From Micromonospora violae (lineage in GTDB: Bacteria > Actinomycetota > Actinomycetes > Mycobacteriales > Micromonosporaceae): a stretch of 64,000 bases of DNA. The translations under genes and the position numbers were made by a program. Below, piece after piece: positions 1 to 15,429 of the stretch. The notes below the pieces were generated by a model. It did no database searches and was not told the DNA's origin. It worked only from the letters and a program-made list of their open reading frames with translations. Numbering within the stretch: the first letter of the stretch is position 1; each line of letters opens with the position of its first letter. Where the stretch lies: the NCBI RefSeq assembly GCF_004217135.1, contig NZ_SHKK01000001.1, positions 2,480,001 to 2,544,000 on the forward strand, read 5' to 3'.

Positions 1-1475
1 TCCTTCGGGTCGCCGTTCTTGGCGACCTCGTAGAGCTGCTCGGTGGCGACGAAACCGGTGTACGACATCAGGCCCTCGTAGACCGCGCCGAGTTGGTTGA
101 TGCCGAGCTGGGCGTAGGAGATGAAACCGCCGCGGCGCTTCTTGCCGCCCTTGGTGAGCATCAGCCGGCGCAGCACCTCGTAGAGGACCTTGTTGCGCAG
201 CCGGGTGTCGATCTTCGGGGCGTCGTCGTCGTCGGGGTCGCTGCCGGGCACGGGGATCAGCCGGCCGATGAGCTTGGTCTTCTCCGGCAGGAACAGGTCC
301 GACTTCATGGGCTCGAAGCGCAGCCCTTCGCCCTCGCTGGCCTTGTCGGCGATCTCCGCGCCGCCGCGCTCCCGGTGCCCGTCGTTGACCATGCGGAAGA
401 GCAGGTCGAGCGACTCGTACAGGTGGGTGCCGTCCTCGGCGGACGGTGCCATCCGGCGGGAGACGAGGTCACCGAGGCGGGCGAGGCTGTAGCCCTCGAC
501 GTACTGGGGGTCGTTGACGGGCAGCACGCCCAGCTCGGGGCGGGCCTCGGCGTAGAGCAGGAACAGGATCCGGTACAGGTAGCGCAGCGACTCCCGGCCC
601 AGCTCCTTGGCCAGCTCGTCGAGGGCCATCACCTGCTGCGGTTGGTAGCCGGCCCGCCGGATCTGGTCGAGGACCTCGTTGGCGATGAGTTCGACGGAGA
701 CCTTCAGGCCCTCGCGGAGTTCGCTGGAGACACCGACGGCGTGCTGGCGGGAGCTGGCGACCAGGTCGGCGAGGGGTTCGCTGCCACCCTCGGCGGGCGG
801 GCGCAGCGAGTCGGCGCCGAAGAGCGCCGCGACGACGTCTAGTTCCTTGTCGTCGTTGCGGGCGTACGCGGTGTCGAGGCTGACGGCCAGGTAGCGGCCC
901 TCACCCCAGACCGTGCGGTCGGCGAGGGTGACCACGCCACCGCTGAGGATCAGCACGTAGCGGGGCTTCGGGCTGTCGGCGGCGAAGAGCAGGGAGGCGA
1001 GTTTGGCGCCCGTCTCGATGGTCTCGGTGCTCGACAGGGTGAGCGGGTCGAGCAGCCGGCCGGCGTCGTCCGGGTCCTGGGCGGCCTCGGTGTCGACCGC
1101 CCAGCCGCAGTCCAGTGCCACGATGCCGTGCGCGCTGGTCAGCTCGGCGTGGGCGACGTGGACCTCGTACTCCTGGGCGTTGCGCTCGACGGTGATGGTT
1201 TGCGGCTGCGGGTCGAAGCCGAGCGCCCGCAGCACGTCCTGGTGCTGCTTGCGCAGCCGCTCCGGGTCGAAGAAGTCGACGTCGGTCAGCTCGGTCTTCG
1301 CGTCGAAGTAGGTCCGGCGCATGCCGCGCAGCCCGGCGCGCGGCGTGACCCGGCCGGACTTCTCGTCCTCGGCCCACTGCTTGAGCAGGCCACCCTTGAG
1401 GGTGGTGGGCAGGATCTCGGCCAGGTAGTGCGCGGAGAGGTACTCGCCACGGTTGGTCAGCGACTCGAAGCTCAT
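1..1475 (-). CDS. Eco57I/PglX-like DNA adenine methyltransferase, N-terminal 491 residues (DrmMI-like), cut by window edge
   Basis: The frame opens with ATG at 1475 and stays open to base 1, so the C-terminal part, where the SAM-binding and NPPY motifs would lie, is outside the window. The visible part begins MSFESLTNRGEYLS and contains ISYAQLGINQLGAVYEGL about 35 residues before the edge. That short block resembles the LG-x-(I/V)-YEGLL element found ahead of the catalytic domain in Eco57I, PglX and other large adenine methyltransferases. The start overlaps the helicase stop as ATGA (1472-1475), so the two are translationally coupled. A SNF2 helicase followed by a large adenine methyltransferase is the DrmD-DrmMI arrangement of class 1 DISARM; that assignment is inference because DrmA, DrmB and DrmC would lie outside. 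No catalytic residue is visible here. Confidence 0.75.
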   Translation of the reverse strand, partial: MSFESLTNRGEYLSAHYLAEILPTTLKGGLLKQWAEDEKSGRVTPRAGLRGMRRTYFDAKTELTDVDFFDPERLRKQHQDVLRALGFDPQPQTITVERNAQEYEVHVAHAELTSAHGIVALDCGWAVDTEAAQDPDDAGRLLDPLTLSSTETIETGAKLASLLFAADSPKPRYVLILSGGVVTLADRTVWGEGRYLAVSLDTAYARNDDKELDVVAALFGADSLRPPAEGGSEPLADLVASSRQHAVGVSSELREGLKVSVELIANEVLDQIRRAGYQPQQVMALDELAKELGRESLRYLYRILFLLYAEARPELGVLPVNDPQYVEGYSLARLGDLVSRRMAPSAEDGTHLYESLDLLFRMVNDGHRERGGAEIADKASEGEGLRFEPMKSDLFLPEKTKLIGRLIPVPGSDPDDDDAPKIDTRLRNKVLYEVLRRLMLTKGGKKRRGGFISYAQLGINQLGAVYEGLMSYTGFVATEQLYEVAKNGDPK

Positions 1476-4273
1476 GCGGCGTTCTCCTGCGACGGTACGA
1501 GGACGGCGAGCACCCGCAGCAGCGGGTCGCCGGTGGTTTCCAAGCGGTCGAGCAGGTCGTGCTGCTCCTGGACGGTGGTGTCGACGCGCTGGCGTCGCTT
1601 CTCCCGATGCGCACCGGGCAGCTCATCGCGGATGCTGGCCTGCTGGAAGGTCCTCAACTGCTCGCGGTGCTTACGCAACGGCTCGGCGTTCGCCTCGGCC
1701 CACTCGTCGCGCTTGCCCTCCAGATGCTGCCGGGCCACCTGGACGGCCTCCGGCAGCAGCGCCTTCAGCGGGGCGATGGCGATGGTCTCCGCGCGGTTGA
1801 CCATCGTGGGGCCGACGTTCGCCTCCCGCAGCACCTCGTCCATGGCTCGGATGGTTGGCGCGGCTGGGAGGTCGGAGACGGCCATCCACTGCACGACGGT
1901 GGGTTGGCCGAGGCGGTTGGCGTAGACGCCCTGGATCAGGAACGTGGGCGCGGCCACGTCGGCGGTGAGCACCGGAGCTTGCTGGCGGCCGAGCCGGATC
2001 AGCACCTTGTCGACCAACCAGTCGACCATCGGGTGCACGTCGCTGAGGAAGGCGATGTCCGGCCACATCGGGGTCTTGCTCTGCCGGGCCTGGTCGAGTT
2101 TGCGCTGGGCGAGCGGACGGTCGAAGGTGACCTTGAGCCGCAGGTCCTCGCCCTCCCGGTGCGCCCGCAGGTAGGAGCGGGGCAGGTCGGTGAGCCGGTG
2201 CACCAGGTCGTCGGGCGCGAGGAAAGTCAGCAACTCGTCCTCGCGGCGCAGGTCGATGTGGTCCTCGGGGCGGTCCTCGTAGACCTCGTAGAGGGCCGTG
2301 TCGACGAAATCCCGGGTGGAGTCGAAGAGCTTGGGGACCCGGGCCTGCAACACGTCCGCCGTCACGGGCGCGGTGCCGACCTCACCGAAGAGGTCGGCCA
2401 TCACGTCGACCTCAGCGTGGGCGGCCTCGTAGGACTCGTCCACCGACTTGCCGGCGAGCAGGTCGCGGACCAGCCGGTCCTCCTCGGCCTTGGCGTCGAA
2501 CTGACCGGTCAGGGCCTCGACGCTGCCGAGGCTGCGGTGCGCGGTCTCCTCACGGTTGAGCAGCTTCTCGGCGACCGTCCGGTCGTCCTTCGCGTCGTCA
2601 CGGTCAGAGGTGAGGATCAACGCGCGGAACTGCGGTTGATGCTTCTGCCCGTACCGGTCGATGCGGCCGTTGCGCTGCTCGATCCGGATCAGGCTCCACG
2701 GAATGTCGTAGTGGATCAGGTGGTGGCACTGCTGGTGCAGGTTCACACCCTCGGAGGCGACGTCGCCGGTGAAGAGCAACCGGACGTCGCTGCCCGCCAG
2801 CTCGAACTCCTGCAGGATCGTCTGCTCGTCCTTGTCGGCCACGCCGCCGTGCAGCACCCGGATCGCGTTGGGCTTGAGGCCGAGCAGCCCGGGGACCACC
2901 TCGGCGAGCCACTTGATGGTCGGCACCCGCTCGGAGAAGACCACCGCCCGGGTGTCGCTGCCCTTACCGACGCCGATCTTCCGCAGCTCGTCGACCAGCC
3001 CCGTGAGCTTGCTGGAATCCTGGTCGGTCATCGCGGACGTCAGCTCCGCGAGCCGGTCCAGCGCCGCCCGCTCGGTGCCGGCGGCCTTCTTACGCCGGTT
3101 GGTCACCGTCTCGTGCAACGCCCGGTGCGAGGAGAGAAACGACTTCAACAAGGTGTACGGGAAGAGCCGGTGCTGACCGGTGATCGCCTCGTCGGTCCAC
3201 TTGCCGGCCAGCCACACGTCGGTCAGCTCGTCGAAGATCTGCTCCTCGATCGGTGTCGCCGCACAGTGCAGCGCCTGCGACGGGCCGCGGTCGGCCCAGC
3301 GGTCGCCGATCTGGTCGCGTACCTCTGGGCTGATCTTCGTGCGGCGCAGGTAGAGGTGCGCGATGTCGCTGGCCTGGTAGTCCTTCTCGTTGGCGATCGC
3401 CGCCGGGTCGAGCAGCGAGATCAACTGGGCGAACGACTCCTTGTCACCGTTGTGCGGGGTGGCGCTGGCCAACAGCAGCGCGTCGGTCTTCGCAGCCAGG
3501 CGGCGGGCCAGCTCGTTGCGCTGGGTGCCCTTGTTGATGAGGTTGTGCGACTCGTCGATGACGACCGCGTCCCAGGTCGTGGCGTCGAGGTGGTGGCCGA
3601 ACTGGCCGGCGTCCTTGAGGGTGTCGACCGAGATGATGGCCCGTTTGAAGTACGTGAACGGGTTGCGGCCGGCGGGGATCTCCTGCTGGATGCGCTGGAT
3701 GCCGGTCGAGTCGAGCCGCACGAGCGGGATGGCGAACCGCGTCCACAGCTCACGCTGGAACTGCTCAAGCACCTGCTGCGGCGAGACCACCAGGATGCGC
3801 TCACCGCGACCCCGGCGGATCAGCTCGGCGAGGATCAACCCGATCTCCAGGGTCTTGCCCAGACCGACCACATCCGCGAGCAGGATCCGCGGCCGCAGAC
3901 CGGACAGGGCCAGCTCCACCGGCCGCTGCTGGTAGGTCAACGGGTCGAGCAGGAACCGGTCAGCGAGGGCCAACCCGCGCTCGGTGCGGGGCAGCGGAGT
4001 ACGCCGCAGCACCGCCTCCAGGAAGAGGCGACTCTGCCGGAACCGCGACGAGGTGTCCTGGACGAGCTCCGTCTCCTCGGGCACCAGCGGCGTGATGGCC
4101 TCCAGCTCGGTGAAGAAGGTCGCCTCGACGTCCTGCACGAACTCGGAGACGCCGACCGCCTTCACCATCGTGCCGTCCGCGGTGCCGGTCTTGACGCTGC
4201 GAATCAGCCACTCCTCGTCGCGGACGACGATGCGGGAGCCCGGGGCGAAGGTAGCGGCCTGGGTGGTGGTCAT
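1472..4273 (-). CDS. SNF2/Rad54-type DEAD-like helicase (DISARM DrmD-like)
   Basis: This 933-residue ATP-dependent DNA translocase has the motifs of superfamily 2. Walker A is GLGKT at residues 137-141, the DEAH-equivalent is DESHN at 240-244, motif III is SATPHNGD near 270, and the C-lobe carries QRNGRIDRYGQ (motif VI). The N-terminal 60 residues form a small SH3-like module of the kind seen in bacterial SNF2 proteins. The ATG at 4273 has a GGAAGG ribosome site, and the gene begins 13 bases after the kinase stop. It overlaps the downstream methyltransferase by four bases. In class 1 DISARM the SNF2 protein DrmD precedes the methyltransferase DrmMI, which is what this order suggests. The function as phage defence is inferred from context only. 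Confidence 0.92.
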   Translation of the reverse strand: MTTTQAATFAPGSRIVVRDEEWLIRSVKTGTADGTMVKAVGVSEFVQDVEATFFTELEAITPLVPEETELVQDTSSRFRQSRLFLEAVLRRTPLPRTERGLALADRFLLDPLTYQQRPVELALSGLRPRILLADVVGLGKTLEIGLILAELIRRGRGERILVVSPQQVLEQFQRELWTRFAIPLVRLDSTGIQRIQQEIPAGRNPFTYFKRAIISVDTLKDAGQFGHHLDATTWDAVVIDESHNLINKGTQRNELARRLAAKTDALLLASATPHNGDKESFAQLISLLDPAAIANEKDYQASDIAHLYLRRTKISPEVRDQIGDRWADRGPSQALHCAATPIEEQIFDELTDVWLAGKWTDEAITGQHRLFPYTLLKSFLSSHRALHETVTNRRKKAAGTERAALDRLAELTSAMTDQDSSKLTGLVDELRKIGVGKGSDTRAVVFSERVPTIKWLAEVVPGLLGLKPNAIRVLHGGVADKDEQTILQEFELAGSDVRLLFTGDVASEGVNLHQQCHHLIHYDIPWSLIRIEQRNGRIDRYGQKHQPQFRALILTSDRDDAKDDRTVAEKLLNREETAHRSLGSVEALTGQFDAKAEEDRLVRDLLAGKSVDESYEAAHAEVDVMADLFGEVGTAPVTADVLQARVPKLFDSTRDFVDTALYEVYEDRPEDHIDLRREDELLTFLAPDDLVHRLTDLPRSYLRAHREGEDLRLKVTFDRPLAQRKLDQARQSKTPMWPDIAFLSDVHPMVDWLVDKVLIRLGRQQAPVLTADVAAPTFLIQGVYANRLGQPTVVQWMAVSDLPAAPTIRAMDEVLREANVGPTMVNRAETIAIAPLKALLPEAVQVARQHLEGKRDEWAEANAEPLRKHREQLRTFQQASIRDELPGAHREKRRQRVDTTVQEQHDLLDRLETTGDPLLRVLAVLVPSQENAA

Positions 4274-4286
4274 CGGTGGTGCCTTC

Positions 4287-5351
4287 CTACAGGGTGGAGC
4301 GGCGGGCGTACTGGCGGCGCATCTTGTCGACGAGCCACGTCACATCGGCTGGCTCTCTGGTGGGCCGCTCGGGGTCGCGCTTGTCGGGGTTTGGTGTCGG
4401 CTTCGGAGGGGTCTCGTCCTCGACGACCGCGCTGTCTTCCGGGTCCTGTCGTGGATCGTCCAGGTCCGGCGGGACCAGCAGCTCCGTGCCACCGTCGTAG
4501 GTGAGTTCGGCGACTTCCTGGCGCAGGGCGTGGACGCTCTTGCCGCTGGTGGCGGTGGCGACCGCGAGCAGCCGGGCGCGAATGTCGGTGAGGCCCGGTC
4601 GGGCGGTGGGGTCGAAGGCGAGCATCGCGCCGAGCAACTGCACCAGCTCGGCCGGCACCTCAGACAGATCGGGCAGGTCGCTCGGCTCGCTGATGCGCAG
4701 CAGCAGATTCCATGAGTTCGTCGACGGATAGAGCCCACGCCCCGTCAGCGCGAAGACCAGGGTCGCCGCGAGCGCATAGACGTCGACCGCCGGCGTCAGG
4801 TCCCGCTCACCCTTGACCTGCTCGGGTGACATGTAGGCGGGCGTGCCGACCAGTGCGCCCGGCTCGGTCAGGTAGTCATCCCGCTCAATCAACACCGCCA
4901 GCCCGAAATCGATCAGCTTGGGCCCATCCGGGCCGAGGATGATGTTCTGCGGCTTGAGGTCACGGTGCAGCAGCTTGACCTCGTGCACCTTGGCGAGGCC
5001 TTCGGCGAGCATCGCGCCGGCCATCGCCGCCAATGGCAGCGGAAGCGGCCCCCGGGCGTCGACGTGCTGGCGCAACGTGGCCCCGGGAACGTACTCCACC
5101 GCCAGCCAGGCCGGGTTCGCGTACGGGTCGGCGCCCTCCAGACGGGCCACCCGGGAGCCGAAGACCAGCTTGAGGCTGTCGACCTCGGCGGCGAAGCGCT
5201 CACGCACGGTCGGCGCCTCAATCAGGTGCTGTTTGATCACCTTGACGGCGACCCGCTCGGCGGTCGGCGACACCGCGAAGAACACGTCGCCCATGCCACC
5301 TGAGCCCAGCGGCCGGACCAGGTCATAGCCGCCGATTCTGCCCAGCGTCAT
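4287..5351 (-). CDS. Cytoplasmic Ser/Thr protein kinase (Hanks type) heading the helicase-methyltransferase operon
   Basis: The 354-residue protein is a complete eukaryotic-type kinase domain. The glycine loop GSGGMG is at 16-21, the ATP-anchoring lysine at 37 (VAVK), the catalytic loop HRDLKPQN at 129-136, the metal-binding DFG at 148-150 and the activation-segment SPEQ near 175. The C-terminal 90 residues are polar and proline-rich, with no transmembrane segment, unlike the usual PknB receptor architecture. It is the first gene of the operon with the SNF2 helicase and the methyltransferase, 13 bases apart. Kinases occur in PglW/BREX systems, but PglW is far larger, so this is not PglW. It may regulate or sense for the defence operon; that role is inference. 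Confidence 0.92.
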   Translation of the reverse strand: MTLGRIGGYDLVRPLGSGGMGDVFFAVSPTAERVAVKVIKQHLIEAPTVRERFAAEVDSLKLVFGSRVARLEGADPYANPAWLAVEYVPGATLRQHVDARGPLPLPLAAMAGAMLAEGLAKVHEVKLLHRDLKPQNIILGPDGPKLIDFGLAVLIERDDYLTEPGALVGTPAYMSPEQVKGERDLTPAVDVYALAATLVFALTGRGLYPSTNSWNLLLRISEPSDLPDLSEVPAELVQLLGAMLAFDPTARPGLTDIRARLLAVATATSGKSVHALRQEVAELTYDGGTELLVPPDLDDPRQDPEDSAVVEDETPPKPTPNPDKRDPERPTREPADVTWLVDKMRRQYARRSTL

Positions 5352-5512: not shown

Positions 5513-5824
5513 ATGAGTCGGCGTGTGACGATCTCCGTTCCCGATGACGTAGCCGAGCAGCTGGATGCGCTCCCGGCTCGTCAGGTTTCCGCGTATGTCA
5601 CCGAAACGCTGCGCCGCCGTCGGAAATCCGACGACATGCGCGCGGCCCTGCGGGCCGCTGGGCATGGCGAGTATCCGTACGACCCTGAGGGTGCGGTGCG
5701 GCGCCTCGCCTCCCGGCAGGTGACACCGGAGATGCGCGAGGCGGCTATTGCCCGAGTGGCAGAGCTGCTGGAGCGTCCGGTCGACGACGTCCACGCCGGC
5801 TTCGACCGGCCGAGTGCGGCGTGA
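5513..5824 (+). CDS. Ribbon-helix-helix antitoxin
   Basis: The 103-residue product begins MSRRVTISVPDDVAEQLDAL and continues into a typical ribbon-helix-helix DNA-binding fold, followed by a charged tail likely to bind the toxin. The ATG at 5513 is preferred over the upstream in-frame ATG at 5483, because the DNA-binding strand starts right after it and a TAGGGT -10 box sits at leaderless distance. The stop overlaps the start of the PIN gene as GTGA (5821-5824), the classic coupling of antitoxin and toxin. Such antitoxins normally autorepress with their toxin; no clear operator repeat was identified. Confidence 0.85.
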   Translation: MSRRVTISVPDDVAEQLDALPARQVSAYVTETLRRRRKSDDMRAALRAAGHGEYPYDPEGAVRRLASRQVTPEMREAAIARVAELLERPVDDVHAGFDRPSAA

Positions 5825-6222
5825 GCGCACCGGTCTACGTGCTCGACACCGGTGCCCTGATGGCCTACGCCCAGGGTGTCGACGCCATCGGTGAAGCGAT
5901 GGTGGATGCGGCCGACGCCGATGCGACTGTCGCCGTCCCGCTCGTCTGCCTGCTCGAGGCATACAGCCTGCTCGACCACACCGAGCACGAATACCTGTCC
6001 ATGCTGCGCCGCAACCCGGCCGTACGGATCATCACACCGGCCCTGCACGTCGATCGGGCCGACGACTGTCCAATGATCGGGGGCATGGCCCGGCAGACCG
6101 GCCGTCTCGGTGCCGGCAGCGCGGCCTTCCTCGCGATCAGCAACGCTGCCGGTGTGATCACCTCTCGGGCCGACCAGCTGCGAAAGGTGCTCGGCGACGA
6201 CTGGCCCATCATCGAGGTCTGA
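5821..6222 (+). CDS. PIN-domain toxin (VapC-like) with an atypical active site
   Basis: The 133-residue protein starts at GTG 5821 inside the antitoxin stop. It has the PIN opening YVLDTGALMAY with Asp9, a second acidic residue Glu46 in CLLEAYSL, and a C-terminal ITSRADQL with Asp118. At the place where VapC proteins have the third acidic residue (LADA-like), this protein reads GAGSAA, with Ser100. PIN toxins are ribonucleases using three to four acidic residues for Mg2+, so activity could be reduced or metal coordination altered. The pairing with the ribbon-helix-helix gene makes the toxin-antitoxin call firm even if the catalytic competence is uncertain. Confidence 0.85.
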   Translation: MSAPVYVLDTGALMAYAQGVDAIGEAMVDAADADATVAVPLVCLLEAYSLLDHTEHEYLSMLRRNPAVRIITPALHVDRADDCPMIGGMARQTGRLGAGSAAFLAISNAAGVITSRADQLRKVLGDDWPIIEV

Positions 6223-6264: not shown

Positions 6265-6354
6265 CTAATCGGCGACGCTGTCGAAGATGCTCTCCTGCGG
6301 ATCGGCAAAGCGGACCGGCCCGAATTCGCGGAACATCCCCGCCGCGCCTTTCAT
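6265..6354 (-). CDS. 29-residue open frame translationally coupled to the methylase-like gene
   Basis: ATG at 6354 overlaps the stop of the methylase-like gene as ATGA and encodes MKGAAGMFREFGPVRFADP followed by ten more residues before TAG. The residue mix looks protein-like, and the coupling is the same type used by real genes elsewhere in the window. It could be a tiny partner protein or the surviving start of a longer deleted gene. I do not recognise a family. Confidence 0.35.
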   Translation of the reverse strand: MKGAAGMFREFGPVRFADPQESIFDSVAD

Positions 6355-8258
6355 CGGATGTCGGCGTCTGGCCGCAGAACCCCCCGCGCCAACCCGTCCG
6401 CGGTCAGTTGCGCCAGCTCGGCGCCCAGCGAGGCGGCCTGCCGGATCGCCGACTCGAAGGCGACGAGACGCCGGAACGCGTCGCCATGCACTCGCTGCGC
6501 GTCGATCGACAGTCGCCGCACCTGCGCCCGTCGGATGTCGAATCGCATCGTGCTCGACAGGCTCGACGCCTGCTTCTCGTTCGCTGACGTTCGCAGCTGA
6601 CCGGCCAGGTGCCACGGATCGAGTGCCGCCGGGTTGGGCCGCAGCAGATAGAGGTTGCGCCCCAACACCGCACCAGCGGTGGTGACCACTCGTGGGATGA
6701 GCTGCCGCGCGATCACCGGCACCACCACGTCACCCACTGCGAGGGGGATCTCCTGCCCGAATCGATCGTCGATCCGCCCGGACGCCTCCACCCCGGTGAG
6801 CACGTCCTGGACGGTGAGCACCGGCGGCCCGTCGGGTGCGGGTGTGGACGTGCCGGCACGGACCGGCCCGATCAGTTGCAGCGCTCCGGTCTTCGCCAGC
6901 TCCCCGACGGTGAGGAAGAGGCCGTCCGGCCCGTCGGGCGCGGGAGTGACCTGGGGCAGCAACGCCGGCAACTCGCCGACGATGGCGGCCAGCCGCTCTC
7001 TGGTGCGTACCAGATGCTCTCCGGAAGCCTCGCCCACGACGGCGGGTTGCCGGCGCGCGGGGGTGAGGTCGACGTCCTCGTCGAGCAGCTCGATGACCGG
7101 GACCGCGCGGGCGAACCCGGCCTCCTCGACGTCGCCGTCCGGGGCGGCGGCGAAGGCCCGCCACGCAGCCAGCACGCGCGGTGCGGTGTCGGCCAGGTCG
7201 CCGTTCGCGGCGTCGATCAGCAGCGTCCGCGCCGGTGGCGGCGCGTCGGTCGCGGCACGTCGCAGCACCCACATGTGCAGGGGTACGCCGTGCGGCGCCG
7301 CCACCCCCGGCGGAAGTGCGATGACGGCGCGCAGGTGACCGCGGCGCAGCAGTTCGCCGCGGATGCGTTTGCCGGCGCGGCGGCTGGCGACGGTGGGTGG
7401 CATCAGCAGGACGGCGTGCCCGCCGACCCGCAGGTGGGCCAGGGCGTGCTGCACCCAGGCCAGCTCCGGTTCGGTGCGGGGTGTGGTGCCGACGATCCAG
7501 CGGGGGTCGTGCCCGAGTTCGTCGTCGCCCCAGTTGGTGGCACCGAAGGGTGGGTGGCAGACGACGGCGTCGACGGCGCGGCCGGCGAAGGCGTCGGCGC
7601 GTAGCGAGTCACCGCCGCTGACTTCGCCGGTTACGTCGTGCAGGGCCAGCCACAGGCCGGCGAGCCGGGCCAACTCGTCGTCAAGTTCCTGCCCGTACAT
7701 CGAGGTGCTGCCTGCGCGCGCGGCGGCGCGCAGGATGGCGCCGGAGCCGGCGGCGGGGTCGAGCACGGAACCGCCGCCTACGTTGGCGAGCCCGATCATC
7801 AGGTCGGCGAGGTCGTCGGGGGTGGCGAAGGGCCGGCCGGGGCCTGGTGCGGAGAACCGCTGCCACAGCTCGTCGAACGCGCCCTGCGGGCCCAGCTCGT
7901 CGGTGAGGGCGTCGACGTCGGGCAGCAGCGGCGTGAGTTGGGCGTCGGTGCTGCCGCTGCGGGAGCCGCGTTGACGGGCCAGTAGCAGTGCGCCGACGGC
8001 GGCGAGGCCGGCGGCCGGGGAGTCGCTGGCCGCGGCGAGGTGTCGCCAGAGCCGGTCGGCGGTGGCGAGCTCGGGGAGCTTGCCCTGGGTGCGGAGCCAC
8101 TGCTCGACCTGGACCAGGTCGAACTCGGGGCTCGCCGTCGTCCCGCCCACCGGGGCGGGGAAGTCGGGATGCCGTTTACGCCAGTTGCTGACCGCAGCGC
8201 GACCGACACCGGCGAGCCGGGCGATCTCCGCTGCCGTGATGGTCGGGTTCTCCTGCAC
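6351..8258 (-). CDS. HTH-methylase-specificity fusion protein (type I M/S-like) with HPPF in place of NPPF
   Basis: The 635-residue protein has three parts. An N-terminal helix-turn-helix (residues 7-30, AEIARLAGVGRAAVSNWRK) comes first. An N6-adenine methyltransferase core follows, with SAM motif I DPAAGSG at 167-173. The last 200 residues resemble half of a type I specificity subunit (PVLTVQDVLTG, then GRNLYLLRP and SLSSTMRFDIRR). Motif IV, normally NPPF or DPPY and essential for methyl transfer, reads HPPF at 235-238 (codon CAC). The protein may therefore bind DNA and SAM without methylating, or have altered chemistry. No restriction subunit is adjacent. The start is GTG at 8258, divergent from the lipoprotein gene at 8361. 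Neighbouring defence-type genes suggest an accessory restriction-modification or regulatory role. Confidence 0.85.
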   Translation of the reverse strand: MQENPTITAAEIARLAGVGRAAVSNWRKRHPDFPAPVGGTTASPEFDLVQVEQWLRTQGKLPELATADRLWRHLAAASDSPAAGLAAVGALLLARQRGSRSGSTDAQLTPLLPDVDALTDELGPQGAFDELWQRFSAPGPGRPFATPDDLADLMIGLANVGGGSVLDPAAGSGAILRAAARAGSTSMYGQELDDELARLAGLWLALHDVTGEVSGGDSLRADAFAGRAVDAVVCHPPFGATNWGDDELGHDPRWIVGTTPRTEPELAWVQHALAHLRVGGHAVLLMPPTVASRRAGKRIRGELLRRGHLRAVIALPPGVAAPHGVPLHMWVLRRAATDAPPPARTLLIDAANGDLADTAPRVLAAWRAFAAAPDGDVEEAGFARAVPVIELLDEDVDLTPARRQPAVVGEASGEHLVRTRERLAAIVGELPALLPQVTPAPDGPDGLFLTVGELAKTGALQLIGPVRAGTSTPAPDGPPVLTVQDVLTGVEASGRIDDRFGQEIPLAVGDVVVPVIARQLIPRVVTTAGAVLGRNLYLLRPNPAALDPWHLAGQLRTSANEKQASSLSSTMRFDIRRAQVRRLSIDAQRVHGDAFRRLVAFESAIRQAASLGAELAQLTADGLARGVLRPDADIR

Positions 8259-8276
8259 GCCGAAAGTCTCGCACGT

Positions 8277-8327
8277 CTGTCAAGCACGAGATTGTCTGTT
8301 GACAGTGTTGTCAGACGATGCTCTTAT
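8277..8327 (+). promoter_or_regulatory. Divergent promoter region with a TGTCA-type operator and perfect TTGACA box
   Basis: CTGTCAA (8277-8283) and TTGACAG (8299-8305) form a 7-bp inverted repeat, and TGACA (8300-8304) pairs with TGTCA (8309-8313) as a second, tighter dyad. The right arm contains a perfect -35 TTGACA (8299-8304). It sits 17 bases from a TCTTAT -10 (8322-8327) and would drive the lipoprotein gene at 8361. The left arm is itself TTGACA on the minus strand, facing the HTH-methylase gene. A DNA-binding protein occupying the dyad would block the plus-strand promoter; the HTH-methylase is a candidate binder by proximity only. Confidence 0.55.
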
Positions 8328-8360
8328 TGACCCCGCAACGGTCAACTCAGGAGGACAACG

Positions 8361-8921
8361 ATGCGCAAGACCACGACTCTCGCTCTGCTCGCCACCGGCC
8401 TCATCGCCCTGGGCTGCGGCTCCGGTGCTGCCGACAAGGCGAGCGACTCCGGCAGCGACAACAAGGCGAGCAGCTCTGCCAACGACAAGGGCGACGCCAA
8501 GGCCGAGGAGAAGCCGGCGAAGACCGCCAAGATCGGGCAGCCGGCCCGGGACGGGAAGTTCGAGTTCACCGTCAAGTCGTCCAAGTGCGGCGTGGCCAAG
8601 ATCGGCAGCGACCTGCTCGGCCAGAAGGCGCAGGGCCAGTTCTGCCTGGTCACGCTCAACGTGAAGAACATCGGCAAGGAAGCGCAGATGTTCGACGGCA
8701 GCAGCCAGAAGGCGTATGCGGCCGACGGCACCGAGTACTCCGCCGACTCCGGCGCCGCGATCTACGCAAACAAGAACGCCGAGACGTTCCTCAACGACAT
8801 CAACCCCGGCAACCAGGTCAACGGCGTCGTCGTCTTCGACATCCCGAAGAACGTGAAGCTCACCAAGCTCGAGCTGCACGACTCGATGTTCTCCGGCGGC
8901 GTCGACGTCGCCCTCGGCTGA
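8361..8921 (+). CDS. Secreted lipoprotein with a DUF4352-like domain
   Basis: The 186-residue protein has a lipoprotein signal (LIALGC, lipidated Cys19), then a low-complexity Ser/Ala/Lys/Asp linker to about residue 58. A beta-rich domain follows with the DUF4352 pattern: DGKFEFTV, then FCLVTLNVKNIGK and a final GVVVFDIPK. DUF4352 domains are immunoglobulin-like extracytoplasmic modules of uncertain function. ATG at 8361 follows a GGAGGA ribosome site and a strong promoter overlapping an inverted repeat. A hairpin terminator follows at 8937. Two cysteines in the domain (Cys75 and Cys95 region) could form a disulphide. Confidence 0.85.
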   Translation: MRKTTTLALLATGLIALGCGSGAADKASDSGSDNKASSSANDKGDAKAEEKPAKTAKIGQPARDGKFEFTVKSSKCGVAKIGSDLLGQKAQGQFCLVTLNVKNIGKEAQMFDGSSQKAYAADGTEYSADSGAAIYANKNAETFLNDINPGNQVNGVVVFDIPKNVKLTKLELHDSMFSGGVDVALG

Positions 8922-8936
8922 CCTCTCCCCCACTGA

Positions 8937-8965
8937 CCGGGGCGGGTCTGGACGATCCGCCCCGG
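8937..8965 (+). terminator. Hairpin terminator after the DUF4352 lipoprotein gene
   Basis: CCGGGGCGG (8937-8945) and CCGCCCCGG (8957-8965) form a perfect 9-bp stem with an 11-base loop, 16 bases after the stop codon. As usual in high-GC actinomycetes there is no T tract. Confidence 0.65.
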
Positions 8966-9003
8966 CCGTTCACAGCCCATCCGTTCACAGAAGGAGCCCG
9001 GCG

Positions 9004-9504
9004 ATGACTGACCTGACCGATCCAGATCCGAACGAGAGCCCCGAGGATCCCAAGTCGACCGCTGGCGCCTCGGCCGGCAGCCCTGAGGGCGACGCCCCCA
9101 GGGCGAGCACAGCGCCGACCGGCAGACGTCGCTACCTGATCGTGGCGTCGGCAGTGGCGATTCTGCTAGCCGCGGCCACGAGCGTCGTCTTCCTGACGCA
9201 GCGCGATTCGCCGTTGGAGGAGGCCCGGCAAACCTGCGGTGCCGGCAGGGACGACTGGGCGATGTTGGGCGACGACGGCAACTCCCTCACCCTGCGCAGC
9301 GTCGGTAAGGAGCGAACCGGCCTGAAGCTGGAGCAGTTGCAGTGCTACTTGACCGAACTGAAAGTGCCCGACGCGGTCATTGCGGAGATCGAAGGCACGC
9401 GCGCGCTGGACGGACGACAGTCCGGTGAGTGGGAGGACATGGGCGCCTCGTGGATCTACCACCCGGATGACGGCCTCCAAATGATCATCACCCTCTCGGA
9501 CTAA
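9004..9504 (+). CDS. Single-pass membrane protein of unknown function
   Basis: The 166-residue protein has a 40-residue acidic, Pro/Ser-rich cytoplasmic start. One transmembrane helix follows (about residues 45-66, YLIVASAVAILLAAATSVVF), then a soluble extracytoplasmic domain of about 100 residues with two cysteines (CGAGRDD and QLQCYLTEL). ATG at 9004 has an AAGGAG ribosome site. Two copies of CCGTTCACAG (8966-8975 and 8981-8990) directly precede it. I do not recognise a family. Its neighbours are two lipoproteins, so it may act with them at the cell surface. Confidence 0.75.
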   Translation: MTDLTDPDPNESPEDPKSTAGASAGSPEGDAPRASTAPTGRRRYLIVASAVAILLAAATSVVFLTQRDSPLEEARQTCGAGRDDWAMLGDDGNSLTLRSVGKERTGLKLEQLQCYLTELKVPDAVIAEIEGTRALDGRQSGEWEDMGASWIYHPDDGLQMIITLSD

Positions 9505-10562: not shown

Positions 10563-13013
10563 ATGACCCAGCCCGCGCAGACCACCGCTCCGCTGATCGA
10601 GCTGATCTTCGATCGGCTGGCAACTGACGACGTCCCGACCGCAACTGCCGAGTTGGTCCTCGCCGCACTGACCAGCGAGGAGGACCTGACTGCCGCGCTC
10701 GCCGGCGCTCCGACCCGGCTCGACCCCAGCTCCCCCACCGACGACGGTCCGGCGGAGCAGATCTGGTTGAAGTCGGTGACCGTGGCCGGGTTCCGCGGCG
10801 TCGGCCCGGAGCGGACCATCCAGATCGGCCCCGGGCCGGGTTTCACACTGGTCATCGGCCGCAACGGCTCCGGCAAGTCCAGCTTCGCCGAGGCCGCCGA
10901 ACTCGCCCTCACCGGGGACAGCGCCCGGTGGGCGGACAAGACCAGCGTCTGGCGTACGGGGTGGCGCAACCTGCACAACCCGGACCCGTGCTGGGTCGAC
11001 GTGGAGCTGCGCGTCGACGGGGTGGCCGCGCCGACCCGGGTGCACCGCGCCTGGCCGGCCGGGGCTGAACTGGCTGACGCCGAGGTGACCGTCACCAGCG
11101 CCGGGGGTCGGCACAGCGGCCTGTCCGACCTGGGTCTGGCCCGCCCGTTGGAGCTGTACCGGCCGTTCCTCACCGCCGCCGAGCTGGGCAAGCTCGCCGC
11201 CGGGACGCAGAGTCAGCTCTTCGACGCACTCTTTGCGATCCTCGGCCTGGACGCGCTCAGCGACGCCGACCAGCGTCTGCTGCGCGCCGCCCGGCCGCAC
11301 GACACCACCATCAAGGAGGTACGCGCACAGCGCACCACCCTGGTCGCCACGCTGGGCGGAATCGCCGACGACCGGGCCCGGCGGACCGCCGCGCTGCTGC
11401 GCGGCCGGGGCGCGGTCGACCTCGGCGCGGTGACGGCGATCCTCGACGAGCCGGACGACGCGACGACCGACCGGGAGGTGCTGCTCTGCCGGGAACTCGT
11501 CGCCCTCGCCCCGCCGCCGGTCGACGAGGTGACCCGGCTGGCCGGTCAGCTGCGGGACGCGGCGATTGAGGCGGTGCGCTACGACGGTGGTCGGTCCCGC
11601 GCCGCGCTGCGCAGCGCCGAGCTGCTCCGTCTCGCCCTCGAACACCACGAGGACGAGGGCGACGGGTCGTGCCCGGTCTGCGCCACCGGCACCCTCGACG
11701 GTGGCTGGCGCGCCGCCGCCGCACAGTCGCTCACTGACCTGCGGCAGCGCAGCGTCGCCGCCCAGGCTGCGACGAACCGGCTCACCGCTCTGCTGCGGCA
11801 GACGCACCACCTGATCGACGACCTCAGCGTGCCCGAGGGCCCCGGGTCGGAGCCGACGGTCGAGGCGCTGAGTGACGCCGTTGCGGCGCTGCGGCGCGTA
11901 CCCGGAGAACCGGCCGAGCTGGCCGACCACCTGGCGGCGCGGTACCCGGCGGTGGTGGCCGCGGCGGACGCGGCCCGCGCGTACGCCGAGGGGTTCCTGC
12001 GGCAGCGCGACACCGGTTGGCGGGCGGCGGCGGCCGACGTGCGCGCGTGGGTGGCCACCGCCGGCGGGCTGCCGGCGCGGGAGGCGACCCTGGCCCGGTT
12101 GAAGGCCGCGCGAGCCTGGTTGAAGGACGCCGGTGCGCAGATCCGCAACGAGCGGGTCGCGCCGTTCGCTGAGCACTCGCAGCGGATCTGGGCGCAGCTA
12201 CGGCAGGAGAGCAACGTCGAGCTGGGGTCGATGACGTTGGAGGGCACGAACACCCGGCGGCGGGTGGTCTTCCCGGTCAGCGTGGACGGCGCCGACAACG
12301 GCACGGCGCTGGGCGTGATGAGTCAGGGTGAGATGCAGGCGCTCGGGCTGGCGACGTTCCTGCCCCGCAGCTGCGCTGCGGAGAGCCCGTTCCGGTTCAT
12401 CGTGGTCGACGACCCGGTGCAGAGCATGGACCCGTCGAAGGTGGACGGGCTCGCCCGGGTCCTCGCCGAACCTGCCGAGCAGCGGCAGGTGGTCGTCTTC
12501 ACCCACGACACCCGGCTGCCCGATGCGGTCACCCGGCTTGGCCTCGGTGACGCCCGCATCGTCGAGGTGACCCGGGCGGAGAAGTCGGTGGTGACGCTGC
12601 GGCCCGGCTCCGACCCGGTGACCCGCTACCTCGACGACGCGCACGCGTTGGCACGCAACGACGAGATCCCCGCCGAGGTACGCGGGCCGGTGGTCACAGA
12701 GCTGTGCCGCTCGGCGATCGAGGCGTCCTGCCACCGTGCGGTGTGGCGGGCCCGGGTGGCACGGGGCGTCCCGCACAGCGACATCGAGGCGGCCATCGAG
12801 GACGCGTCGCGTCGGGTCGCCACCATCGTCGCCCTCGCGGTGTTCGACGACGCCGAGAAGGGTGGCGACGTGCTCGGCTGGCTGGGCCGCCGGCACGGAC
12901 GACGGGCTGTCAACGCGTACCAGGCGTGCCGGGAAGGTGTGCACGGCGCGTACCTGGCGGACCTGCCCGGACTGGTCGCGGACGCCCGCCTCCTCGCGGC
13001 GGCGCTGTCGTGA
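10563..13013 (+). CDS. SMC/Rad50-like zinc-hook ATPase with an extra C-terminal domain
   Basis: The 816-residue protein is an ABC-type ATPase of the SMC/RecF/Rad50 class. Walker A GRNGSGKS is at 99-106, a zinc-hook CPVC at 370-373 lies between two Ala/Arg/Leu-rich helical arms, the signature-like MSQGEMQALGLA at 586-597, Walker B FIVVDDPVQSMD at 612-623 and the H-loop THD at 647. The arms are short (about 110 residues each). The first 65 residues form a helical extension, and about 130 residues follow the ATPase head (from about 690). GTGA couples it to the small gene downstream. Lamassu-type defence also uses a zinc-hook SMC-like ATPase beside small partners, but the recognisable LmuA effector is absent. 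DNA-end or structure sensing with a toxic or scaffold partner is inference. Confidence 0.85.
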   Translation: MTQPAQTTAPLIELIFDRLATDDVPTATAELVLAALTSEEDLTAALAGAPTRLDPSSPTDDGPAEQIWLKSVTVAGFRGVGPERTIQIGPGPGFTLVIGRNGSGKSSFAEAAELALTGDSARWADKTSVWRTGWRNLHNPDPCWVDVELRVDGVAAPTRVHRAWPAGAELADAEVTVTSAGGRHSGLSDLGLARPLELYRPFLTAAELGKLAAGTQSQLFDALFAILGLDALSDADQRLLRAARPHDTTIKEVRAQRTTLVATLGGIADDRARRTAALLRGRGAVDLGAVTAILDEPDDATTDREVLLCRELVALAPPPVDEVTRLAGQLRDAAIEAVRYDGGRSRAALRSAELLRLALEHHEDEGDGSCPVCATGTLDGGWRAAAAQSLTDLRQRSVAAQAATNRLTALLRQTHHLIDDLSVPEGPGSEPTVEALSDAVAALRRVPGEPAELADHLAARYPAVVAAADAARAYAEGFLRQRDTGWRAAAADVRAWVATAGGLPAREATLARLKAARAWLKDAGAQIRNERVAPFAEHSQRIWAQLRQESNVELGSMTLEGTNTRRRVVFPVSVDGADNGTALGVMSQGEMQALGLATFLPRSCAAESPFRFIVVDDPVQSMDPSKVDGLARVLAEPAEQRQVVVFTHDTRLPDAVTRLGLGDARIVEVTRAEKSVVTLRPGSDPVTRYLDDAHALARNDEIPAEVRGPVVTELCRSAIEASCHRAVWRARVARGVPHSDIEAAIEDASRRVATIVALAVFDDAEKGGDVLGWLGRRHGRRAVNAYQACREGVHGAYLADLPGLVADARLLAAALS

Positions 13014-13471
13014 CCGCGCCGACGCCACAGTGCTGCCTGGCGGCGGCCGATCAACTGCTGCGCGGGGCTGGCCTGCTCGGTGCCGCGGCGGTCACTGCGG
13101 GCTGGTGGCCGCGGGCCTGCGCCTGCCTGATCCGACTCGCCCTCGAAGGAGGCATCGACGCCTACTGGCGGCGGGTAAAGCCGACCGTGGCGGCGTGCCG
13201 GCAGGGCCGCGCGAAGCAGCTGATGCTGCGTGGCCGGCTCGGCCCCGGCACCGAAACCGCCCGCCGGGTGGCGTTCGCCTGGGCGACGCTCTCCACCGCC
13301 ACGCACCACCACTGCTACGAGCTGGCCCCCACGGCGGCGGAGCTGCGACGCCTGCACACCGAAGTGAGCACCCTGCTCGCGCACCTCCAGCCGAGCGCCA
13401 GCACCGGCGACTGGTCCGAGGGATCGCTCTTCTCCTATCGGCCTGGACCCGACCGCGGCCGTCGACTCTGA
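13010..13471 (+). CDS. Small helical partner protein of the zinc-hook ATPase, unknown family
   Basis: The start is taken as GTG 13010, overlapping the ATPase stop (GTGA), giving 153 residues. An upstream in-frame GTG would run inside the ATPase and is rejected. The protein is helical and rich in Arg and Ala. It has CLIRLALEGGIDAYWRR near residue 45, a THHHCYELAPTAAELRRLH segment near 105, and a disordered tail. The order of an Arg/Glu helix with YWR, a spacer, then a H-x-x-Y-x-L-(x)-P segment resembles the C-terminal domain of the ATPase (residues about 705-815). The two may therefore share a fold. His/Arg pairs in such helices can be seen in HEPN RNases, but no canonical R-x4-6-H is present. 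Confidence 0.7.
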   Translation: MTAPTPQCCLAAADQLLRGAGLLGAAAVTAGWWPRACACLIRLALEGGIDAYWRRVKPTVAACRQGRAKQLMLRGRLGPGTETARRVAFAWATLSTATHHHCYELAPTAAELRRLHTEVSTLLAHLQPSASTGDWSEGSLFSYRPGPDRGRRL

Positions 13472-13598: not shown

Positions 13599-15203
13599 AT
13601 GGCGCCCAAGGCTGACGGATTTGAGAACGAACTTCCCGTACCCGCTGACGCCCCCGGCACCGCTGCGCCGTCGGACGCTGACCCGGCGGTCAGCCTGGTC
13701 GAGGTCGAGCCGGGAGTGGCCGTACTCTTCGCGGACGAGCTGCCCGTCGGCTTGGATCTGATTCCGTTCGAGATGTTGAGCACGCAGGTCAGCCAAGGCT
13801 TGACCGACAAGCTCGCGGTGGCCTCCGGCATCGCCAATCTGGCGGCACAGGGCGCCCAAGCTGCGACCAACGTGCAAGGGCTGGTGCGTCTGGCGCCCCA
13901 GACTCTGCAGGCGCTCAAGACCGCGCAACCGATGACGTCGGGCGGCTGGAACCTGGGGTCGCTGGTCACGGGCAACGGGAAGATCGCCGCCTCGGTGCGC
14001 TGGGCACCCGTGACGGGTGCGCAGACCGCGTCCATACTGTCCGCTCTCGGGCCGGCCGCCGCGCTCCTAGCCCTGCAGGTGCAGTTGGCGTCGATCTCGC
14101 GTCGTATCGACGAGAACGTCCAACTCACCCGTGACGTTCTTCAGGCGCTACACGAGGATCAGTGGGCGACGCTGGTCGGCCTGCACGAGACGACGATGCG
14201 CGCGGTACGTGAGTCCCGGGCGGCGGGCACGGTCAACGATCACATCTTCGCCTCCATCGCCACCAGGGACGCGGACCTACGCAAACAGCGACTTCTCTTC
14301 CGGTCCTTCGTCCGTGGCCACATCAAGGCACTCGATACTGACGCACAGAGCCGTCGCACCCACATCCAGAAGAACATCGAGCAGATTCTCGCCGACACGC
14401 ACGGCATGCTCATGGCGGAGTGGTCCTGGTATCGCTCGCAGGTGCTGCGCGCCGGTCACATCAGCCGCGACGAGGCGAACGCTGTCGAAAACGAACGACT
14501 GCTGGCCGAGTTGGTCGCCGAGACTCAGCGCGAGCACACAATGGCCATGGACGAAGTGGCGAATCTTCTCGCCGACCTCGAACGTCAGTGCCGCCTGATC
14601 GGCGAACTGCCGGCCGAACTCAGTCTGCCGTTCACCGCCAAGCGTCAGAGCATCCGAGACAGTGTCCGCATGGCCGAGGCGTTGGCCGAGCGGGTGGCGG
14701 CGCTGCGCAACCGCGCTCACACGCAACCCGCACCGCTGGATCCGCCGATCACGGTGTTCAGTGACGCCGTGCCGGACGAGCTGCTGCGGATCCTCCGTTG
14801 GGTCGTGCCCGGCGAGGAACCCTTGCTGGCCATCGCCGATGTCAACCTCGACCGCCTCGTCGGCGACGACGCCTACCTCGGAGTGACACCCGAACGCTTC
14901 TTCATCTCGACGCAGAACGCGGTGCGCAAGCAGGGCACGATCGAGCGCGAGTTCCCGCTATCGGAGATTCGCTACGTACGGTTCCGTGAGCGCGACAAGC
15001 GCGGCCCGGTCCTGGACGTCATCACCACGGACGAGAACATCAGGCTCACCTTCGATGACTGGGCAGGCAAGGGGAAAGGGCTGGACGACGCCTACCGGCT
15101 CGGCAATCTCCTGGCCGCAGCGATGGACCTGCCCGAAAGCGAGCGGCGTACCGACCCGCTGCTGAGCGGCGAGTCCCCGACAAGGGAAGCCATAGCAAAC
15201 TGA
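13599..15203 (+). CDS. Unknown protein with central hydrophobic segment, coiled coil and PH-like C-terminal domain
   Basis: ATG at 13599, preceded by AAGGA, gives 534 residues. The layout is an acidic start, a region with ANLAAQGAQAATNVQGLV, a hydrophobic stretch SILSALGPAAALLALQVQLA (about 155-174), then a long charged helix-rich part (about 175-390). The last 120 residues (VTPERFFISTQNAV then FPLSEIRYVRFRERD) look like a bacterial PH-like domain. It stands alone, 127 bases after the ATPase pair and on the same strand. A hydrophobic centre followed by a coiled coil and a PH-like tail would suit membrane recruitment. I do not recognise a family; a role in the neighbouring defence-type module is speculative. 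Confidence 0.7.
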   Translation: MAPKADGFENELPVPADAPGTAAPSDADPAVSLVEVEPGVAVLFADELPVGLDLIPFEMLSTQVSQGLTDKLAVASGIANLAAQGAQAATNVQGLVRLAPQTLQALKTAQPMTSGGWNLGSLVTGNGKIAASVRWAPVTGAQTASILSALGPAAALLALQVQLASISRRIDENVQLTRDVLQALHEDQWATLVGLHETTMRAVRESRAAGTVNDHIFASIATRDADLRKQRLLFRSFVRGHIKALDTDAQSRRTHIQKNIEQILADTHGMLMAEWSWYRSQVLRAGHISRDEANAVENERLLAELVAETQREHTMAMDEVANLLADLERQCRLIGELPAELSLPFTAKRQSIRDSVRMAEALAERVAALRNRAHTQPAPLDPPITVFSDAVPDELLRILRWVVPGEEPLLAIADVNLDRLVGDDAYLGVTPERFFISTQNAVRKQGTIEREFPLSEIRYVRFRERDKRGPVLDVITTDENIRLTFDDWAGKGKGLDDAYRLGNLLAAAMDLPESERRTDPLLSGESPTREAIAN

Positions 15204-15429
15204 CCCCGGGAGGGCGGGGCGGCGATCGTCGAGGGCTGAGTCAGCGGTCCCGGTGTCAACTCGTCAAGGGACGTCTGGGCGAGCGGGTCAGCGCGACAGG
15301 TCCGGTGGCTTATGGTGATAAACCGGGCGCCCGGTGAGCGGGTGTCCGGTCCGGGCCGTGGGATTCACGCTGTTCAGCCGGAGGGTGGATCGATGACCGA
15401 GTACGCCCGCGACGTCGCCGACTGCTGAG
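15204..15429. other. Intergenic stretch with a possible 11-residue upstream frame
   Basis: This 226-base stretch contains no full gene. At 15393-15428 ATG-TGA encodes MTEYARDVADC behind GGAGGG, ending one base before the ATG of the next gene. It may be a leader peptide or a chance frame. Confidence 0.3.

Follow-up and report, generated by a model that had tools for sequence, protein, structure and literature searches.

Suicide ribonucleases that are controlled by an ATPase and tied to restriction or DNA damage are clearly exemplified by PrrC and RloC, which hold sensor and nuclease in one chain. According to the RloC report (PMC2610378), both have an Arg-X3-Glu...His catalytic triad, with a Glu-to-His spacing of X36-52 in RloC; PrrC is without the zinc-hook insert, and RloC is occasionally linked to restriction-modification genes. 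A linked type I enzyme is reported to keep PrrC silent until a phage factor blocks that enzyme, and the RloC of A. baylyi is reported to have needed no restriction-modification protein. Lamassu (LmuABC) has an SMC/Rad50-like ATPase with short arms, often with a hook, and a small partner. Here we analyse a gene pair of Micromonospora violae, encoding a zinc-hook ATPase and a separate partner with a predicted HEPN-like fold, in a stretch of 64,000 nucleotides (assembly GCF_004217135.1, contig NZ_SHKK01000001.1, positions 2,480,001 to 2,544,000; "the window", to which coordinates refer). The pair resembles an anti-virus alarm module that is so far undescribed, and the predicted defence role is plausible.

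Results

The ATPase gene (10563..13013, forward strand) encodes a Rad50/SMC-like protein of 816 residues with a zinc hook. Its last four bases, GTGA (13010..13013), overlap the start of the partner gene (13010..13471, forward strand, 153 residues), which begins with GTG at 13010. Both open reading frames and the overlap were confirmed where a preliminary description of this DNA had placed them. Its phrase "translationally fused in expression" stands as far as the four-base overlap, which 33 of the 41 Micromonospora loci retain (start codons were picked by script), and means no more than that. The two genes have the same dN/dS (~0.22 each; 45 pairs from 10 loci), indicating purifying selection. 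The partner of M. violae has a tail of ~20 residues that is absent from most of the other 40 loci.

The ATPase is complete, as had been proposed. It carries Walker A (GRNGSGKSS, residues 99-107, 10857..10883), the CPVC zinc hook (residues 370-373, 11670..11681), the ABC signature (VMSQGE, residues 585-590, 12315..12332) and Walker B with the D-loop (DDPVQSMD, residues 616-623, 12408..12431), all on the forward strand; an FTHD motif is also present. The hook CxxC occurs in all 123 relatives having letters there (124 distinct rows). The arms are indeed short (predicted helices 230-265, 320-365, 380-420 and 450-547), and the extra C-terminal domain is real: residues ~685-816 (12615..13010, forward strand) are predicted to be helical (685-697, 704-733, 738-748, 752-761, 764-794 and 801-815). 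In the alignment of relatives its R716, E720 and H794, spaced R716-x3-E720-x73-H794, are near-invariant (99, 97 and 95% of 119 distinct ATPase rows). A predicted N-terminal helical segment, residues 1-64 (10563..10754, forward strand; helices 11-21, 26-37 and 39-46, with low confidence at residues 1-9 and 56-63), had been overlooked. Pfam matches over cut-off were SMC_N (1.6e-12), AAA_21 and AAA_23. The heads are of Rad50/SMC type; with the whole ATPase as VIA query, residues 66-689 were covered in most rows and the C-terminal domain fell outside.

The partner, previously an "unknown small protein", has a HEPN-like four-helix fold in its predicted structure (helices 6-18, 33-56, 58-61, 66-72, 81-98 and 109-126, plus a short extra one at 26-29), and by this modelled fold it would belong to the HEPN superfamily. 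Across 120 distinct sequences, R42 is conserved in 115/116, E46 in 114/116, H101 in 114/118 and H99 in 106/118. Foldseek with the partner gave no match at E <= 0.001, and searching PDB sequences with a profile of the partner gave no value lower than 0.34. Some UniRef names of relatives carry a SAV_6107-like label; neither the M. violae partner nor seven relatives had any Pfam match over cut-off, to that family or another.

Helix order is predicted to be alike in the partner and the ATPase C-terminal domain. The partner spacing is x52 from E46 to H99 and x54 from E46 to H101, near the RloC range. Profile comparison of the two by hhalign gave p values of 0.12 and 0.077, and 0.0033 and 0.0016 with deeper sets; among controls, the lowest of 60 column shuffles were 0.037 and 0.036 and the reversed profile gave 0.034-0.035. 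Because a control coil segment (residues 260-360) scored as well as the C-terminal domain (0.0018 and 0.003), we do not claim sequence homology between partner and domain. Distances of the two co-varied, given the heads, with r 0.34, a value that still contains shared ancestry (49 of 113 loci, thinned at 80% identity; 0/2000 label permutations as high).

The two genes are inherited together and are patchily distributed (G and L numbers are our handles for genomes and loci). Our searches scored only a few candidates per genome; in several searches this was <=10, and there second copies were covered incompletely. Sequence of both genes was found in 47 of 121 Micromonospora genomes, in a few cases broken or fragmentary (e.g. 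G014, G061, G118); in G106 the ATPase is intact and the partner apparently broken. Six genomes (G003, G020, G028, G051, G100, G117) have ATPase sequence (E < 1e-13) without a partner, and all six ATPases are truncated, fragmentary or distant. In G108 a fragment of the partner is all that was found. Five further genomes with weak partner matches only (E > 1e-5) were excluded from the tally. ATPase matches overall occurred in 86/121 genomes, the additional ones being short P-loop matches. A class sample of 394 genomes had the partner in 41, the ATPase in 63 and both in 39, some fragmentary (e.g. G231, G380, G445). In addition, G443 has a diverged partner detected by hidden Markov model. The ATPase match stops at 678-684 in 21 genomes of family f30 and covers 153 and 170 residues only in G234 and G504; the partner of G421 is a fragment at a contig edge. 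An orphan partner lies in G242 (L323 7374-7928), with no ATPase found within ~8 kb either side.

The named loci are the best 80 among 561 relatives from GTDB representatives (some genomes shared with the other samples). In 78 of them the partner lies directly downstream of the ATPase; the other two (L197, L205) lack the end of the ATPase as well. Loci without the partner are also without the C-terminal end of the ATPase, a joint occurrence which suggests that partner and C-terminal domain are physically coupled. The partner is almost never found alone, the pair is not core-genome, and its two genes co-occur across actinobacteria.

The claim that the pair is undescribed found support: no described family was found for it, no pair of hook ATPase and HEPN protein turned up in the literature listings searched, and PADLOC, the defence library searched, has no model dedicated to it. 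AAA_13, which we take to be the family holding RloC, scored 16.5 bits against the ATPase, under its cut-off of 36. The pair resembles RloC in its Rad50-like zinc-hook ATPase, C-terminal R-x3-E...H and occasional restriction-modification linkage, but differs in the AAA_13 score, in a C-terminal x73 rather than x36-52, and in its separate HEPN partner gene. As two defining features, AAA_13 and an in-chain R-x3-E-x36-52-H, were not found beside the hook, we did not file the pair as RloC. With PrrC and its type Ic restriction-modification enzyme it would share an ABC ATPase governing a HEPN nuclease, and hsd genes lie near some loci; PrrC, however, is one chain with no hook insert, whereas the pair is two genes in mixed contexts.

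The best PADLOC match of the ATPase was mad3 (2.6e-21), followed by PDC-S06 (2.2e-15). MADS is also approached by the neighbouring kinase (mad6, 4.4e-54) and methylase (mad2, 9.7e-25), but the match to mad3, whose model has 374 positions, consists of two partial stretches, and methylase and kinase also occur without the pair. From the MADS set (mad1-mad8) only mad2-, mad3- and mad6-like and weak mad8-like matches were seen, with window genes 8361, 9004 and 9572 outside the PADLOC scan. PDC-S06, a PADLOC candidate of ~858 residues, is similar in length to the ATPase, but its best stretch spans only ~80 residues; to our knowledge no partner of it is known.

The pair lies inside a strain-variable stretch from ~-7.5 kb to 15.2 kb, drawn from flank comparison in G056, G030 and G039, a composite of several genomes with an uncertain left edge. 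In G056 (L319), the left flank homologous to window -14364..-7544 is 1.7 kb from an aldo-keto reductase gene, a distance of 25 kb in G000. Homology on the right restarts at 15251 (G030, L314) and 15247 (G039, L318), just beyond orf13599. Several genomes hold 2 or 3 divergent copies of the pair. It was unmatched in 50,697 phage records and matched in 3 of 72,556 plasmid records. Two Streptomyces plasmids have the gene order ATPase, partner, helicase, with the helicase UvrD-like by Pfam on one plasmid and by annotation on the other; the annotation of the conjugative plasmid divides the ATPase into two open reading frames. On the Streptomyces anthocyanicus plasmid (L326, 6818-9695), a presumably broken or split ATPase, annotated as frames 6818-9064 and 9061-9279, precedes the partner.

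The variable stretch also encodes a type IIG-like restriction-methylase (window -3441 to 452, L320:15560-19453; PADLOC REase_MTase_IIG, 1.7e-242), a DUF3644 protein (L320:14190-15368; PDC-S19, 9.4e-84), and at 1472-5351 an SNF2 helicase (DrmD model, 8.9e-85) adjoining the Ser/Thr kinase noted above. Helicase and kinase adjoin the methylase in pair-free genomes too (L305, L310). A 133-residue frame at 5821-6222 looks by eye like a PIN-type toxin and had no match in Pfam at 0.001 or PADLOC at 1e-6. The final gene before the right edge (13599-15203, 534 residues) had no Pfam or PADLOC match; of the 31 genomes searched, only its own contained it.

The N6-adenine DNA methylase (6351..8258, reverse strand), with an N-terminus that by eye is helix-turn-helix-like, matched MTase_I (1.5e-104) ahead of mad2 in PADLOC. 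It is a frequent neighbour in Micromonospora: methylase-like genes lie within ~4 kb at 28/41 loci, against 0/40 arbitrary regions of the G-numbered genomes. We rejected an obligate partnership; methylase orthologues (at least 70% identity, three of the orthologues fragmentary or partial) occur in 12 pair-free Micromonospora genomes, and L306 retains methylase, lipoprotein, orf9004 and orf9572 without the pair. Any restriction-type reference was found within ~4 kb at 34/41 Micromonospora loci, 7/16 in the class sample and 10/52 other named loci, against 0/40 controls (one control region had a kinase match); these counts are description and not a calibrated test, because the references were taken from pair loci, Micromonospora loci share ancestry, and the class-sample and named-loci sets overlap.

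Neighbours at individual loci include HsdM (L088) and HsdR (L093) by PADLOC and both by similarity (L168, L175), Azaca ZacA-C (L174; L172 by a ZacC-like match), GmrSD-N (L082), a DUF4011/MTES_1575 helicase-nuclease matching PDC-S37 (L093), an Orf5-type gene (L176), and SngC and PDC-S48 genes (L217, L219, L225). In L082, L084, L085 and L087 a conserved divergent cluster of 376- and ~504-residue proteins adjoins the pair and a GmrSD-N-type protein. Similar sequence occurs in L207, L210, L211 and L212, and the L082 copies had no Pfam match.

Discussion

We tentatively favour the reading that the pair is a two-gene conflict module working like RloC and PrrC, split into two chains. The ATPase would pair via its hook and ATP-bound heads and would sense abnormal DNA; the most likely signals are DNA ends, or unmodified DNA on which an adjacent restriction system acts. 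Sensing would activate a HEPN unit formed by the partner and the ATPase C-terminal domain, and this unit would cut RNA, perhaps tRNA, and so halt growth upon restriction failure.

Several observations weigh against this reading. Position 96 of the partner, which with H101 would make a HEPN R-x4-H, is R in 61/118 relatives and T in M. violae, whose partner has no R-x4-6-H motif; among HEPN domains this motif is found in the majority but is not universal. Outside Micromonospora, a restriction-type-like neighbour was found at only 17/68 loci, and none of the references lies at most Nocardia loci or at any of 11 Lentzea loci. The proposed defence island is supported in that the pair is patchy, lies in an island and adjoins restriction-type genes, with fewer such neighbours outside Micromonospora. 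The one Lentzea locus examined more closely (L228) has SbcCD-like neighbours, with Metallophos and AAA_27 genes downstream. The two findings named earlier as fatal to the defence idea, a partner mostly lacking the ATPase and a core-genome pair syntenic with DNA repair genes, were not made.

The strongest alternative, unlikely in our view, is that the HEPN partner has no catalytic activity and serves as an adaptor or brake, so that the pair would be a sensor cassette licensing separate DNA effectors (HsdR, an SF1 helicase-REase, Zac proteins). It would suit the absence of R96 in about half of the partner family, and a survey of HEPN proteins includes HEPN domains without catalytic function and seemingly tables SAV_6107 without the motif. 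Genes for SF1 helicases follow the pair in the same orientation at 11/41 Micromonospora loci and on 2/2 plasmids examined (the references coming from such loci), but are rare outside Micromonospora (2/15 and 1/52 loci), and R42, E46 and H101 match the ATPase motifs in degree of conservation. Because the missing R96 leaves room for an adaptor, with another gene doing the cutting, our preference for the split RloC/PrrC-like module is a cautious one.

A more specific proposal is more doubtful again. The C-terminal domain and the partner may be two diverged HEPN domains that dimerise to form one composite ribonuclease site, each contributing part of R/E/H, so that neither chain would be toxic alone. 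The pair would then be a plug-in alarm moving between restriction-type systems (methylase clusters, type I restriction-modification, Azaca, helicase-nucleases) and firing once those are overrun.

It is improbable that the pair is a Lamassu- or Wadjet-like SMC defence system with a HEPN protein in place of LmuA or JetD. A coiled-coil ABC ATPase with a hook and a small partner would fit, L211 carries JetB2/JetC2-like sequence less than 4 kb from the pair, and at four f30 loci a short ATPase relative, which matches one LmuB model over 312-652 (9.3e-19), follows JetA2-JetB2-JetC2-like genes. The ATPase of the pair, however, ranks LmuB (best E 1e-11) behind mad3 and PDC-S06 and matches it only in short stretches of its lobes, not in full length, and neither LmuA nor JetD was matched among the selection of neighbours scanned. 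The Lamassu kinship suggested in the preliminary description is thus not borne out, and the partner is HEPN-like by prediction. At the four f30 loci (L163-L166; G361, G335, G396, G301) the match to the short relative ends at ~680 and no partner was matched; the Jet-like genes were scanned in L165, and the other three carry the same clusters. By eye they seem to occupy one chromosomal site near secE/nusG- and murB-like genes, and JetD was unmatched among seven further genes scanned (six from L165, one from L163).

Least probable is an SbcCD-like DNA-repair complex with a helical accessory subunit, which the Rad50/SMC-type heads, the L228 neighbours and the DnaQ-type exonuclease genes that precede the pair in L219 and L225 would suit, but the pair is patchy in one genus, present in divergent multiple copies in some genomes, strain-variable in site and plasmid-borne, and PDC-S48, which the exonucleases match, is a model of a candidate defence system.

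Occurring across actinobacteria, a hook ATPase co-inherited with a HEPN partner on a second chain would be a tractable, divided form of the PrrC and RloC type of enzyme, in which DNA sensing and RNA cutting could be studied separately. If true, the pair would extend knowledge of phage defence in actinomycetes.
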